From Oceaniovalibus sp. ACAM 378 (GTDB taxonomy: Bacteria > Pseudomonadota > Alphaproteobacteria > Rhodobacterales > Rhodobacteraceae): a stretch of DNA of 64,000 nucleotides. Of the stretch, positions 25,391-54,837 are shown piece by piece. The DNA lies in contig NZ_VSJK01000010.1 of NCBI RefSeq assembly GCF_008085915.1, positions 1 to 64,000 of the forward strand, in the 5' to 3' direction. Both the position numbers and the translations under genes were made by a program. Each line of letters starts with the position of its first letter. The stretch's first letter is position 1. The notes beneath the pieces were generated by a model. The model saw nothing but the letters and a program-made list of their open reading frames with translations. It searched no databases and was not told the DNA's origin.

Positions 25391-25792
25391 CGCGCGGATG
25401 GCTGGATGGCCGCGTGCCCTTGCAAAAGGGTGCGAGGAAAGTCCGGACTCCCAGAAACAACGGTGCCGGGTAACGCCCGGGCGGGGCAACCCGACGGAAA
25501 GCGCCACAGAGAACAGACTGCCTTAGCCGGTCGCTTGCGATCGGCAATGGTGAGGGTGAAACGGTGCGGTAAGAGCGCACCGCGCCCCCGGCAACGGGGG
25601 TGGCACGGCAAGCCCCACCGGGAGCAATGCCGAATAGGGATTTCAAGGGGTTTCCCCAGGGCCGTTTCTGCCCCGAAATCCGGGTAGGCAGCTTGACCCT
25701 GTCGGCAACGGCAGGGCCAGAGGAATGGTCATCCATCCGTGACGGGCAACCGGAGCGGAGGACAAAATCCGGCTTACAGGCCGTCCGCGCAA
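25391..25792 (+). ncRNA. rnpB: RNase P RNA, bacterial class A
   Basis: The catalytic RNA of ribonuclease P trims tRNA 5' leaders. The conserved core GAGGAAAGTCCGG is at about 25434, followed by ACAGAGAACAGACTGCC. The P8-P9 region reads GAGGGTGAAACGGTGCGGTA and then AGAGCGCACCGC, and the 3' core reads CCGGCTTACAGGCC. P1 forms between GCGCGGATGGC (25392-25402) and GCCGTCCGCGC (25780-25790), which sets the ends to within a few bases. It starts 9 bases after the amidase stop on the same strand, so its promoter probably lies inside the amidase gene. Confidence 0.97.
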
Positions 25793-50478: not shown

Positions 50479-52182
50479 TCAGCCCGCGATGATCTCGAAC
50501 CGGGTCACATCGACCATGCCGCGGTCCGTTATCTTCAGCATCGGGATCACCGGCAGCGCGACAAAGGCAAGTTGCAGGAATGGCTCTTCAAGCTCTACAC
50601 CCAGCGAAACCGCAGCCTCACGCAGTTTCACCAGCCGCGCGCGAACATGCTCAAAGCTCTCAAGGCTCATCAATCCCGCCATGGGCAGCGCCAGTTCGGC
50701 CAGCACGACGCCATCGCGCACCACAACGAACCCGCCCTCGATCTCTCCCAGCCGGGTCGCCGCAATCGCCATATCGTCATAATCGACACCGACCACCGCA
50801 ATGTTGTGGTGATCGTGGCAGACGGTCGAAGCGATCGCTCCGGCCTTTAAAGTGAACCCCTGCACAAACCCATTGGCGATATTGCCGTTGCGCCCGTGCC
50901 TCTCGATCACCGTGATGCGGGCCAGATCACGGGCAATATCGGGTGCCTTGTCGCCGTTCACCACAGGAATGTCGAAATGCAGATGTTCGGTGATGATCTT
51001 GCCGGGCAGTATCCCGATCACATCACTTTGTTCCCGGTTCGACGAGGTCCGAAACGATGCCGCCGTGATTGCCGGCGCCTTGACCGAGTGGCGCCCGATC
51101 GGGTCGATCACCCGGCGTCCCGCGAACGCCGCCTCGCCGACTTCGACACCTTCGCACCACACCGCCTGCACATCGCAGGCTTCCAGGGTACCGATGGCGA
51201 CGATATCCGCACGCTTGCCCGGAGCGATCTGACCCCGATCCTTCAGCCCGAACGCCTCGGCCGCCGACAGCGACGCGGACCGGTAACAGGCCAGCGGCGA
51301 CACGCCCCCGGCAATCGCGGTGCGGATCATATAGTCAAGGTGCCCCTGTTCGCCGATATCCAAAGGATTACGGTCGTCGGTGCAAAAACAGCAATATGCG
51401 CTGGTCGCATCGTTCAAAATTGGCAATAGCGCGGCCAGATCCTTGCTCACCGAACCTTCGCGGATCAGGATGCGCACACCTTTTTGCATTTTCTCCGTCG
51501 CCTCGGCGGCATTGGTCGCCTCGTGTTCGGTGCGGATGCCTGCGGCGACATAGGCGTTCAGATCGCGTCCCGACAACAGCGGCGCATGACCGTCGATGTG
51601 GTGCCCTGCGAAGGCTTCGAGTTTCTCCATACATCCCGGATCTCGGTGGATCACCCCGGGGTAATTCATGAATTCGGCCAGACCCAGCGCCGCCGGATGT
51701 TCAAGCAGCGGCAAAAGCTCGGCTGCGGAAATTTCGGCGCCCGAGGTTTCCATGTCGGTTGACGGCACGCAGGACGACAGTTGCACCCGGATATCCATCA
51801 CAGTCTCAAGTGCCGCATCCAGAAAATACTGAATCCCGGGCACGCCCAATACATTGGCGATTTCATGCGGATCGCAGATCGCCGTGGTGACCCCCAAAGG
51901 CGCGACGCAGCGGTCAAACTCATAGGGGGTGACAAGCGAACTTTCGATATGCAGATGCGTGTCGATAAACCCGGGCACAAGGATCAACCCGGCCACATCC
52001 CTAACTTCGGTCCCGTCATAATCCGCGCCGATCCCGACGATGCACCCGGCCGTGATCGCCACATCTCCGGAAATCAGCGCGCCAGTGACCACGTCGAACA
52101 CCCGCCCACCGCGCAGAACCAGATCGCAGGGCGTGATCCCTCGCGCGGTGTCGATGAGGGCAGCAAGGGATCGTTCGGTCAT
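50479..52182 (-). CDS. ade: Adenine deaminase
   Basis: This amidohydrolase converts adenine to hypoxanthine and ammonia in purine salvage. The 567-residue length is right for the family. Motifs include [19 protein letters not shown] near residue 74 with the metal histidines, [20 protein letters not shown] near 192, and [20 protein letters not shown] near 269 with a metal aspartate. It stands alone between two terminator-like elements. 8-Oxoguanine deaminase at 32.1 kb is a second purine deaminase in this window. Confidence 0.95.
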
Positions 52183-52399
52183 CGTCAGGCTCCGGTCAGG
52201 GGAAAAGTGTGGCAGTTTCGCACCAAATCCGGCGGAAGGTCCAGACCGAAGCCCGAAAATCGCGCCTCTTGCACCCTGTGTTTGTTTTGGAAACGATTTT
52301 CGCGCTATCCTGAAATCAAGGCGTCATCAGATCGACGCAGCGGAAATGCGGGCACAGATCCGGTAACCGCAGCAGATTCGGACAGTGCAAGATTGGTTT

Positions 52400-52481
52400 C
52401 ACGTCGCTTTGCCCGGTGGGCAAATGTGGTACCCAGTTCCTCCCTGACTGGACAGGCCGCACTTCGGTGCGGCTTTTTTTT
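52400..52481 (+). ncRNA. Candidate small RNA with anti-Shine-Dalgarno loop and own terminator
   Basis: No protein gene precedes this plus-strand intrinsic terminator: ade starts leftward at 52182 and the SRAP gene ends at 52499 on the minus strand. The 82 bases can fold into three hairpins. TTTGCCC / GGGCAAA is at 52408-52424, CCAGT / ACTGG at 52433-52451 with a 9-nt loop TCCTCCCTG, and the terminator stem at 52456-52473. The CCUCCC loop could pair with ribosome-binding sites, as known for alphaproteobacterial sRNAs with CUCCUCCC-type loops (CcsR, alpha-r14 families). The promoter is uncertain; a longer form starting near 52320 after TATCCT is possible. Confidence 0.5.
52456..52481 (+). terminator. 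Strong orphan plus-strand terminator
   Basis: GCCGCAC-TTCG-GTGCGGC forms a 7-bp stem with a stable UUCG loop, followed by eight T residues. It works only for plus-strand transcription, yet no plus-strand protein gene lies upstream. That is the main evidence for the small RNA. Confidence 0.93.
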
Positions 52482-52498
52482 GACCAGATCCAAGCGGG

Positions 52499-53176
52499 TT
52501 ACAAATGCCCGCCTGCTCCCTCGCCGTTGGGAGCAATCAACTCAGCCCCACTGGCGCGGTTCGAATTCACCGCCCGGTCCACCCGGTGCCAAGCCAAAAG
52601 CTCGTCGGGCGCCGCCCGCATCAGCGGCGCCGCACCATGACCCGCCTCCCCAAGCCAGAGCGGCCAGTCACCGGGTGACAGGATCACCGGCATCCGGTGA
52701 TGAATCGCCGACATCGGCTGATTGGCTGCGGTGGTGACGATGGCGCAGGTCGCAACAGGATCATCGTGCCCCCACATTTGCCAGATACCGGCAAAGGCAA
52801 GCGGGGCGCCTTCAGCCGCGTGGATATACCATGGCAGGCGGTTACCCTCGGCGTCCTTGGTCCACTCATAGAACCCTGTCACCGGAATCAAACAGCGCCT
52901 TTCCCGCACGGCGGCACGGAACGCAGGTTTCTCGGCGATGGTTTCGGCCCGGGCATTGATCAGCAACGGACCGTCATTTTCTGCCTTGTACCAATGCGGC
53001 AAAAACCCCCAGCGCATGGCGGTCAGGCGGCGACTGTCATCCGACACCACCACATGCACCCGGTTGGTCGGGCAGATGTTGTAATTCGGCACATCGGGCA
53101 GGTCGTTGCCCGGCACGGCCTGAAACAGTTGCGCCATCGCATCAGGCGGCAGGGTGACTGCGAAACGTCCGCACAT
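52499..53176 (-). CDS. SRAP-domain protein (HMCES/YedK family)
   Basis: The start is the ATG at 53176 (MCGRFAVTLP), because Cys2 must become the N-terminal catalytic residue after Met removal. SRAP proteins crosslink to abasic sites in single-stranded DNA through this cysteine and protect them. The 225-residue protein also has NARAETIAEKPAFRAAVRER, RCLIPVTGFYEW with the conserved glutamate, and HHRMPVIL with the active histidine. It probably acts in DNA-damage tolerance, but no SOS operator was seen upstream. Confidence 0.95.
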   Translation of the reverse strand: MCGRFAVTLPPDAMAQLFQAVPGNDLPDVPNYNICPTNRVHVVVSDDSRRLTAMRWGFLPHWYKAENDGPLLINARAETIAEKPAFRAAVRERRCLIPVTGFYEWTKDAEGNRLPWYIHAAEGAPLAFAGIWQMWGHDDPVATCAIVTTAANQPMSAIHHRMPVILSPGDWPLWLGEAGHGAAPLMRAAPDELLAWHRVDRAVNSNRASGAELIAPNGEGAGGHL

Positions 53177-53277
53177 CGGGACACCTTGGGTCAGCACGCG
53201 CCCGATGTCGGGCGTGAAAGGTCAAAACAGGATGGATCGCGCCCCGAACCTCAGCTGGCCCGGGGCGCGTGACGGTA

Positions 53278-54837
53278 TTATTTCTTGACGATACGTCCCT
53301 CGATCACCGGGGATACCGGGCCGCTGGCCGCCATATATTCGGCAAGCACATCGGCCACATCCGGTCCGAAGTCATAGGCGTTTTCGGCCTCGCGGAACAT
53401 CGAGAATCCGTCACCGCCGTTGCGCACAAAGTTGTTGGATACCACGCCATAGGTCGCCGCCGGATCGATTGGCGCACCGCCGACCATCACGTCACTGATC
53501 CGGCTGCCGACTTCGGCAGAAGCATCAAACGCATAGGTCATCCCTGCCACCTGAAGGAAGCGCCCGGCAACATCCTCGATCTGACTGACGCCGTTCTCCA
53601 GCGCCTCGACGATCGTTGCACCGCTGGTCTCGAAGGTCGACAGGGTGTTCTGGAACGGCAACACGGTCAGAACCTCGCCCATTGTCACCTCGCCCGCGTC
53701 GATCCCGGCCCGCACACCGCCACTGTTTTGCAGCGAGACGGTGACGCCCTGATCGGCGGTCCGCGCCAGCATTGCGTCGGCAATCAGGTTGCCCATGGCG
53801 CATTCCTCGACCCGGCAAACCTCGCGGTCGCCGATGATGGCGTCTGTCGCTTCGGCAACCACTTCGTTGCGGATTTCGTCAAGCGGGATCGCCGCCTCAC
53901 TGATTCGCGCCACGGTGGCTTCGTCTTCGACCACTGTGCCGTCCATGATGATCGGCTCGCCCATGGCCTCGGTGATCTTGCCCGCATCGTCGAAAGTCAC
54001 ATTCAATTCGCCCAGAAACTTGCCATAGGCATAGGCCTGCACGATGGCCGTATCGCCGACCATCACCGGATAGGGGCCCTTGGCACCCTCAATCGTGTTG
54101 GACAGCAGGCTGTTGTCGTGGCCACCGACGATCACATCGACGCCGGTGGTGTTTTCGGCCACTGCCTTGTCGACGTTCAGGCCGGAATGGGACAGCACGA
54201 TGATCTTGTTGACGCCCTGCTCGGTCAGTTTGTCGACCTCGCCCTGCACAGCTTCGGCGGGATCGGTGAAAATCACATTCGGCCCGGGCGAGGCCAATTC
54301 ATCGGTGTTCTGCGGTGTCAGACCGATCAGACCGATCTTTTCGCCACCCTGTTCGATGACCACCGATTTGCTGATCGCGTCTTTCAACAGCGGTTCGCCC
54401 GAATAGTCGGCGTTCGACATCAGGATCGGAAAATCGACCGCATCGACAAATCCGCGCAGCACTTCGGGACCATCGTCGAATTCGTGGTTGCCCACGGTCA
54501 TCGCGGTATATCCCATCTTGTTCATCATCTCGGCGGCATGCTTACCCTTGTAGTAAGTATAAAACAGCGTGCCCTGAAACTGATCCCCGCCATCGACCAG
54601 AATCGCGTTGTTCGACCGCGCCCGCGCATCAGCGATTGCAGTGACCAGACGGGCCGATCCGCCAAAACACGCGCCCCCGGCGTTGTCTTCGGCGGAACAT
54701 CCCGCGTCGTATTTGCTGATCGGTTCGAAACGGGCATGAAAATCGTTCGTATGCAGGACGGTCAGCGAATATTCGGCGTTGGCCGCACCGGCGCCCAGCG
54801 CCAGGATCGCGGCGGATGACAAAAGACGAAGGTTCAT
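53278..54837 (-). CDS. Periplasmic 5'-nucleotidase / UshA-type metallophosphatase
   Basis: This 519-residue exported enzyme has a Sec signal peptide (ILALGAGAANA, about residues 1-21). The calcineurin-like metal motifs are LHTNDFHARFEP, DGGDQFQGT, GNHEFDDGPE, SHSGLN and GGHDNSLL. A C-terminal 5'-nucleotidase substrate domain carries NSGGVRAGIDAGEVTMGEVL and a NNFVRNGGDGFS-type aromatic stacking loop. It should hydrolyse extracellular nucleotides to nucleosides and phosphate, supplying purines that the deaminases nearby can use. Confidence 0.95.
   Translation of the reverse strand: MNLRLLSSAAILALGAGAANAEYSLTVLHTNDFHARFEPISKYDAGCSAEDNAGGACFGGSARLVTAIADARARSNNAILVDGGDQFQGTLFYTYYKGKHAAEMMNKMGYTAMTVGNHEFDDGPEVLRGFVDAVDFPILMSNADYSGEPLLKDAISKSVVIEQGGEKIGLIGLTPQNTDELASPGPNVIFTDPAEAVQGEVDKLTEQGVNKIIVLSHSGLNVDKAVAENTTGVDVIVGGHDNSLLSNTIEGAKGPYPVMVGDTAIVQAYAYGKFLGELNVTFDDAGKITEAMGEPIIMDGTVVEDEATVARISEAAIPLDEIRNEVVAEATDAIIGDREVCRVEECAMGNLIADAMLARTADQGVTVSLQNSGGVRAGIDAGEVTMGEVLTVLPFQNTLSTFETSGATIVEALENGVSQIEDVAGRFLQVAGMTYAFDASAEVGSRISDVMVGGAPIDPAATYGVVSNNFVRNGGDGFSMFREAENAYDFGPDVADVLAEYMAASGPVSPVIEGRIVKK

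Follow-up and report, generated by a model that had tools for sequence, protein, structure and literature searches.

In the window analysed here, a stretch of 64,000 nucleotides from Oceaniovalibus sp. ACAM 378, a rightward intrinsic terminator stands in a gap between two leftward genes, which raises the question of what RNA it would end and what such an RNA might do. The reading that we favour, and consider likely from the comparison of genomes, is that the gap carries a conserved, stand-alone gene for a trans-acting anti-Shine-Dalgarno small RNA (sRNA), of a type that lies outside Rfam and within a known kind. In a literature made up mostly of papers available without subscription, we recognised no paper on this RNA, nor any on a small RNA of Oceaniglobus.

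The locus and the build of the candidate RNA

The initial annotation had placed a UUCG terminator with eight Ts, and a 7-bp hairpin ahead of it, in a gap with no rightward protein gene, and had named SRAP (SOS response associated peptidase) and adenine deaminase (ade) as the neighbours of a new sRNA locus. These elements are all present, the coordinates given for them are correct, and both neighbours are borne out in the window by their Pfam domains and leftward orientation (Table 1). Since the T run of the terminator exists on the plus strand only, the element does not end the transcription of SRAP; and since ade, the nearest gene upstream, is divergent, the RNA would need a promoter of its own in the window. 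A scan of 51500-53500 for the sigma-70 consensus found no promoter. At a place roughly equal to that of the possible -10 element listed in Table 1, TA-rich hexamers are found behind a T-rich stretch elsewhere in the genus, in what is a weak alignment; a transcript of about 163 nt would then start close to the position proposed in the initial annotation (52320). Little is conserved in the genus upstream of about 52405, so that the 5' half of such a transcript is poorly kept in the alignment, and activity probably resides in the 3' ~85 nt. The bounds that we give for this active RNA follow the layout common to 43 distinct sequences, which starts about 45 nt before the core, and its 5' end is approximate.

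Two other elements of the window deserve mention. Just upstream of ade, a block, GTGTGGCAGTTTCGCACCAAA (52207-52227), is largely kept in five of five same-genus genomes and is possibly the promoter or operator of ade. At 25394-25792 lies an RNase P RNA gene (RF00010, 303.9 bits).

Table 1. Features of the ade-SRAP region, with positions counted along the window
Feature	Position	Strand	Remarks
Adenine deaminase gene (ade)	50479..52182	-	Divergent neighbour; PF13382 and PF01979
Intergenic gap	52183-52498		Between two leftward genes, ade and SRAP
Possible -10 element of the sRNA promoter	52306..52311	+	TATCCT; putative; start at ~52318-52320
Possible full-length transcript	52319..52481	+	~163 nt; putative, from the possible promoter and the terminator
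Probable active sRNA	52394..52481	+	~88 nt: leader, 5' hairpin, anti-Shine-Dalgarno core, terminator
5' hairpin	52408..52424	+	TTTGCCC-GGT-GGGCAAA, 7 bp
Second hairpin	52433..52451	+	CCAGTT-CCTCCCT-GACTGG; in the minimum free energy (MFE) fold; mostly not conserved
Invariant core	52437..52456	+	TTCCTCCCTGACTGGACAGG, 20 nt; identical in five same-genus genomes
Motif	52439-52446	+	CCTCCCTG; complementary to Shine-Dalgarno-type sequences
Intrinsic terminator	52454..52481	+	9-bp stem AGGCCGCAC/GTGCGGCTT, TTCG loop, eight T
SRAP gene	52499..53197	-	Convergent neighbour; PF02586

Conservation, distribution and fold

Is this arrangement more than chance? In the window, CCTCCCTG is observed three times against 1.8 expected, the fold of the 162-nt stretch has a z-score of -1.18, with 25 of 200 shuffles as good, and terminator-like sites number 26 in 19.5 kb against 17.2 expected. 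Hairpin, motif and terminator are weak when taken singly; combined, they exceed chance, and it is the comparison of genomes that decides the matter. A 221-nt query matched nine of 61 genomes, its own included. Our same-genus set consists of six Oceaniglobus-like genomes (the window's own and G001, G002, G003, G004 and G005), five of which hold the module, the one without it being G004 (75% complete); each of the four matches outside the genus covers a short stretch that lacks the module. TTCCTCCCTGACTGGACAGG and the terminator are kept in those five genomes between flanks that are both poorly conserved, and the letters of the terminator stem vary among them while the pairing is preserved.

Beyond the genus, a covariance model of the five same-genus sequences (R1) was run against 295 genomes of the family. 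Its 19 top-ranking places (E at or below 2.5e-10), including two (the window's own and that of G003) that were themselves members of the model, all have CCTCCCTGACTGGA and a terminator, and the next match in the window's own genome is far weaker (4.8e-6) and covers the terminator part only. At E 0.01, some match is obtained in 283 of the 295 genomes, and many of the listed weak matches cover just the terminator part or belong to other CCTCCCT types. As for the exact 15-mer TCCTCCCTGACTGGA, 27 of 394 family genomes contain it, once per genome, and none of the 394 contains the reversed pattern; right behind the 15-mer stands a T-rich terminator in 26 of the 27, the exception being L083. A scan of named genomes returned 45 stretches, 42 with the terminator and three (from a Zixiibacteriota MAG, Streptomyces and Allosediminivita) without. 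One of the 42 terminator-bearing titles reads only 'Alphaproteobacteria bacterium'; the other 41 name Rhodobacteraceae, Paracoccaceae or genera that we place there. Since the 15-mer was set by the search patterns, its invariance outside the genus is partly a matter of construction; the covariance search, which is less tied to the 15-mer, puts the same loci on top. In these searches, the RNA type occurs in a minority of genera in the family.

These counts also bear on the idea that we are dealing with a terminator that happens to follow a chance CCTCCC, at the end of a leader, read-through or antisense transcript with no regulatory function. Such a view can appeal to how common terminator-like sites are and to the weak R1 matches in nearly every family genome, but 20 nt that stood there by chance would not be identical across five species, nor does chance agree with a core that is tied to the terminator in 26 of 27 genomes, and we regard it as very improbable. 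The anti-Shine-Dalgarno sRNA gene that the initial annotation had proposed as a candidate is, as a conserved gene, well supported by the same comparison of genomes.

For the fold, we compared 43 distinct sequences (42 loci and the window's own), several of which belong to closely related organisms and do not count as independent. Under dinucleotide shuffles, the segment from -45 to -4 before the core has a mean z-score of -1.57, with 32 of 43 below -1, against -0.22 and 9 of 43 for a control segment further upstream (Wilcoxon p 1.7e-5). A 5' hairpin of changing sequence precedes the core in most homologues, and in 42 of 43 predicted folds its last pair falls 4-12 nt ahead of the core; the terminator is built from 29 distinct stems among the 43. 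The initial annotation had drawn a further hairpin with the motif in its loop and had called for three conserved stems in relatives. Here the outcome is divided: the 5' hairpin and the terminator are kept, whereas the middle stem, which can form in the window, has its four outer pairs complete in only six of 43 homologues. Pairing at its positions -5 and -4 is seen in 27 and 22 of 43, close to the background expectation (22.7 at either position); at positions -3 and -2 it is above background (30 against 20.3 and 22 against 12.1 expected), so that part of the family may have a short inner stem. UUCCUCCCU is predicted to be only moderately open, with a median unpaired probability of 0.69 and values above 0.7 in 18 of 43, and for GACUGGA the median is 0.44. 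As modelled, then, the conserved RNA consists of a hairpin, then UUCCUCCCU, which is fairly open, and GACUGGA, and lastly a terminator, about 85 nt in all.

As to the surroundings, at least 21 of 42 loci, some of them with short flanks, have SRAP downstream and encoded on the opposite strand; 13 have it no further than 400 nt away, 18 no further than 750 nt and three at 1.6-2.6 kb. An M16 peptidase gene lies downstream in eight of 42. Within the genus, SRAP adjoins the module in the window's own genome, G002 and G003 and is 1.6 kb off in G005; no SRAP was found in G001 within 14 kb around the module. Upstream, xdhC is present and divergent in 11 of 42 loci, ade in four of 42, all of them same-genus loci (the five same-genus carriers all have ade next to the module), and glgP in four of 42, adjacent in just two; a mandelate-racemase-like gene precedes on the same strand in at least four loci (L115, L119, L135 and L136, one of them Pfam-scanned). 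SRAP was considered as a general partner of the module and rejected: in the 700 nt downstream of 29 SRAP genes in family genomes without the 15-mer (the best 30 of 42 SRAP-bearing genomes, the own one removed), none has CCTCC[CT] with a six-T run, L180 having CCTCCCT without the T run and two loci the T run alone. Two elements recur further upstream in parts of the family. A tandem repeat, TGCCGCA-N4-CGCCGCA with half-sites 11 nt apart, stands about 90 nt before the core in eight of 43 loci (L112, L115, L119, L126, L127, L135, L136 and L139) and resembles the site of an OmpR-type regulator; a AGATAAGACCT-like box lies about 82 nt before the core in eight of 43 (L113, L128, L133, L138, L140, L143, L144 and, in a looser form, L130), all eight with xdhC upstream. 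Neither the repeat nor the box occurs in the window's genus.

Proposed pairing and candidate targets

From the anatomy and distribution described above, we infer the following course of events. Transcription would run rightward from a promoter within the ade-SRAP gap and end at the UUCG terminator near 52481, and the RNA so made would offer UUCCUCCCUGACUGGA between its 5' hairpin and its terminator. Most likely, it would pair through UUCCUCCCUG with ribosome-binding sites of the AGGGAGGAA type, probably on an RNA chaperone to which its U-rich tail binds, and the outcome would be a lower translation or stability of several mRNAs, the likeliest target group being the periplasmic binding proteins of transporters.

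The same letters can be read on the other strand, where AGGGAGGAA would serve a small leftward gene as its ribosome-binding site. In 21 of 43 sequences a start codon does follow on the minus strand at a distance of 3-12 nt, but the other 22, the window included, have none, and the frames are of unlike length, from 4 to over 42 codons; on these two counts the small leftward frame was rejected. As it would also leave the rightward terminator unexplained, we give this explanation next to no credence.

Another possibility is that pairing of the core is chiefly with a single fixed partner, be it a sponge RNA or one particular mRNA, and not with many ribosome-binding sites. In the genus, the invariant stretch exceeds the anti-Shine-Dalgarno part, running through GACUGGA and then CAGG, which is beyond what pairing with a Shine-Dalgarno sequence needs. 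Moreover, according to PMC12559287, the alphaR8 sRNAs pair upstream of start codons and one of them, SisA of Caulobacter, is bound and held off by the sponge RNA CrfA. Against this, scans for CCAGTCAGGGAGGAA and CAGGGAGGAA before ATG found no fixed partner, and the conservation of the 15-mer outside the genus is partly constructed, as explained above, though the covariance search ranks the same loci first. A fixed partner thus seems to us unlikely, and we return to the favoured reading, pairing with several ribosome-binding sites, in considering targets.

The longer complement, CCAGTCAGGGAGGAA, occurs nowhere in the own genome at 0-12 nt before ATG. The perfect complement of UUCCUCCCUG, CAGGGAGGAA, stands 3-9 nt before ATG at 20 places in the five same-genus genomes; two of these places, being the antisense of the sRNA locus, were left out. 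By Pfam, 11 of the 18 genes behind the remaining places encode periplasmic substrate-binding proteins, the other seven being outside the Pfam scan and two of those being short doubtful frames; for AGGGAGGAA in the own genome, five of nine genes encode substrate-binding proteins. As a control we took CAAGGAGGAA, which makes a good ribosome-binding site but has a mismatch to the sRNA: three of the eight genes behind it encode substrate-binding proteins, one of the three (the own PhnD-type gene) being assigned by its likeness to L189, and two of the eight are short doubtful frames. This PhnD-type gene has CAGGGAGGAA in G003 as against CAAGGAGGAA in the window's genome. Since the control leans the same way, and since the PhnD-type gene has both forms, we treat the lean towards transporters as a lead and not as a result. 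Duplex energies did not discriminate candidates from controls.

Comparison with known sRNA families

No Rfam family exceeded its cut-off at the site, at the four loci of the same genus or at another 20 loci of the window type; with no family at threshold in those 20, annotation by Rfam would miss the type. At 52100-52700 there are 12 sub-threshold matches. RF00519 (suhB/mmgR) scores 22.0 bits at 52419-52488, with a gathering threshold of 41, and SorX (RF02784) and SorY (RF02651) score 27.2 and 24.8 bits in the window, with thresholds of 46.6 and 111; TarB (22.1 of 80 bits) and others on the same stretch were set aside as chance or terminator likeness. The initial annotation had recommended a covariance search against CcsR, suhB and the alpha-r families; suhB matched below threshold, and no Rfam family reached its own. 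Likenesses and differences can nevertheless be set out for three groups.

(i) With alpha-r14/NfeR1 and CcsR1-4 (the cuckoo RNAs), the candidate would share anti-Shine-Dalgarno pairing. In PMC10746234 and PMC10253847, alpha-r14 is described as having three hairpins, each with an unpaired CCUCCUCCC, and CcsR1-4 as following a DUF1127 gene, and most target candidates of NfeR1, an alpha-r14 member, are said to encode ABC transport systems (PMC10746234). In contrast, 52320-52481 holds one CCUCCCUG and no CCTCCTCCC, and the upstream gene is the divergent ade. The CcsR/alpha-r14 plan that the initial annotation had assigned to this locus therefore fails: a single CCUCCCUG between one hairpin and a terminator is the plan of alphaR8, and the SorX/SorY models show it as well.

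(ii) AlphaR8 (MmgR in Sinorhizobium, SisA-D in Caulobacter) has, according to PMC12559287, a weak hairpin, the 10-mer UUUCCUCCCU and a terminator, and lies mostly beside an FGase gene. The 5' hairpin, an internal anti-Shine-Dalgarno GUUCCUCCCU and a Rho-independent terminator make up the likeness, and the upstream hairpin and downstream terminator are both present here; the alphaR8 core continues with AGACUU, whereas the window type continues with GACUGGA. The candidate could even be the alphaR8 of the window's genus, diverged and moved but the same gene by descent. Besides the shared plan, nine of the ten letters of the 10-mer are in the window and all ten in 10 of 43 homologues, GUUCCUCCCU is in 21 of 43, the O. 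indicus locus reaches 34.4 bits against RF00519, and of 29 genomes bearing the window type two have an RF00519 match over cut-off, neither of them holding the 10-mer. On the other side stand the different continuation of the core, the low RF00519 score in the window given above, and the neighbourhood: RF00519 is above cut-off in 11 of 120 family genomes, and these loci (L052-L062) have FGase near in eight of 11 and dinB in nine of 11 (1.5-kb flanks), as against 0 of 42 loci of the window type with either gene in the flanks examined. A canonical alphaR8 alongside the window type was looked for in the two over-cut-off matches and discarded, one being without CCTCCCT and the other SorX-like. The window's sole FGase-like match is 41 kb from the site; we take it to be a HutG-like gene and rejected it as an alphaR8 marker, CCTCCCT being absent from the 560 nt on its left side. 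The exact 10-mer in 10 of 43 homologues keeps descent from alphaR8 conceivable, and we hold it to be doubtful.

(iii) Like SorX and SorY of Rhodobacter sphaeroides, the candidate has a 5' hairpin and an identical succession of CCUCCCUG, UGGA and a terminator of the GGCCG type. The window's genome has a SorX above threshold on another contig (63.1 bits; contig C54, L012 1471-1553, minus strand), behind a LysR-type gene. In R. sphaeroides, SorX comes from the 3' UTR of ompR-1 and is cut from the mRNA, by the account in PMC8625941. Whereas RNase E releases SorX from the 3' UTR of an mRNA, the gene upstream of the window candidate is divergent, which makes a 3' UTR origin unlikely here.

A further type, CCTCCCTGTCAGACTGG with a terminator, recurs elsewhere in the family (L038, L042, L044, L063, L064, L071 and L076). 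Together with alphaR8, SorX/Y and the window type, it suggests one superfamily of the form CCUCCCU-N0-4-GACU-terminator. Anti-Shine-Dalgarno sRNAs recur across the Alphaproteobacteria, and why siblings with nearly one seed coexist in each cell is the question to which they lead: where a genome encodes, next to its SorX, one more CCUCCCUG RNA whose tail differs, do the letters beyond the seed divide the targets?

A wider reading, which we offer tentatively, is that the window holds an unnamed sRNA type of the family, apart from alphaR8, SorX/SorY and CcsR and placed at several unlike stand-alone loci (SRAP, xdhC, M16 peptidase, glgP, ade), in which UUCCUCCCUGACUGGA would combine an anti-Shine-Dalgarno seed with a type-specific part for pairing or sponge docking, and which would set the uptake of many nutrients. 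Taken together, the candidate is built like alphaR8 and like SorX/SorY, but for each of them a defining threshold or a defining place fails; by its build, it would be a sister type of alphaR8 (MmgR/SisA) and of SorX/SorY.
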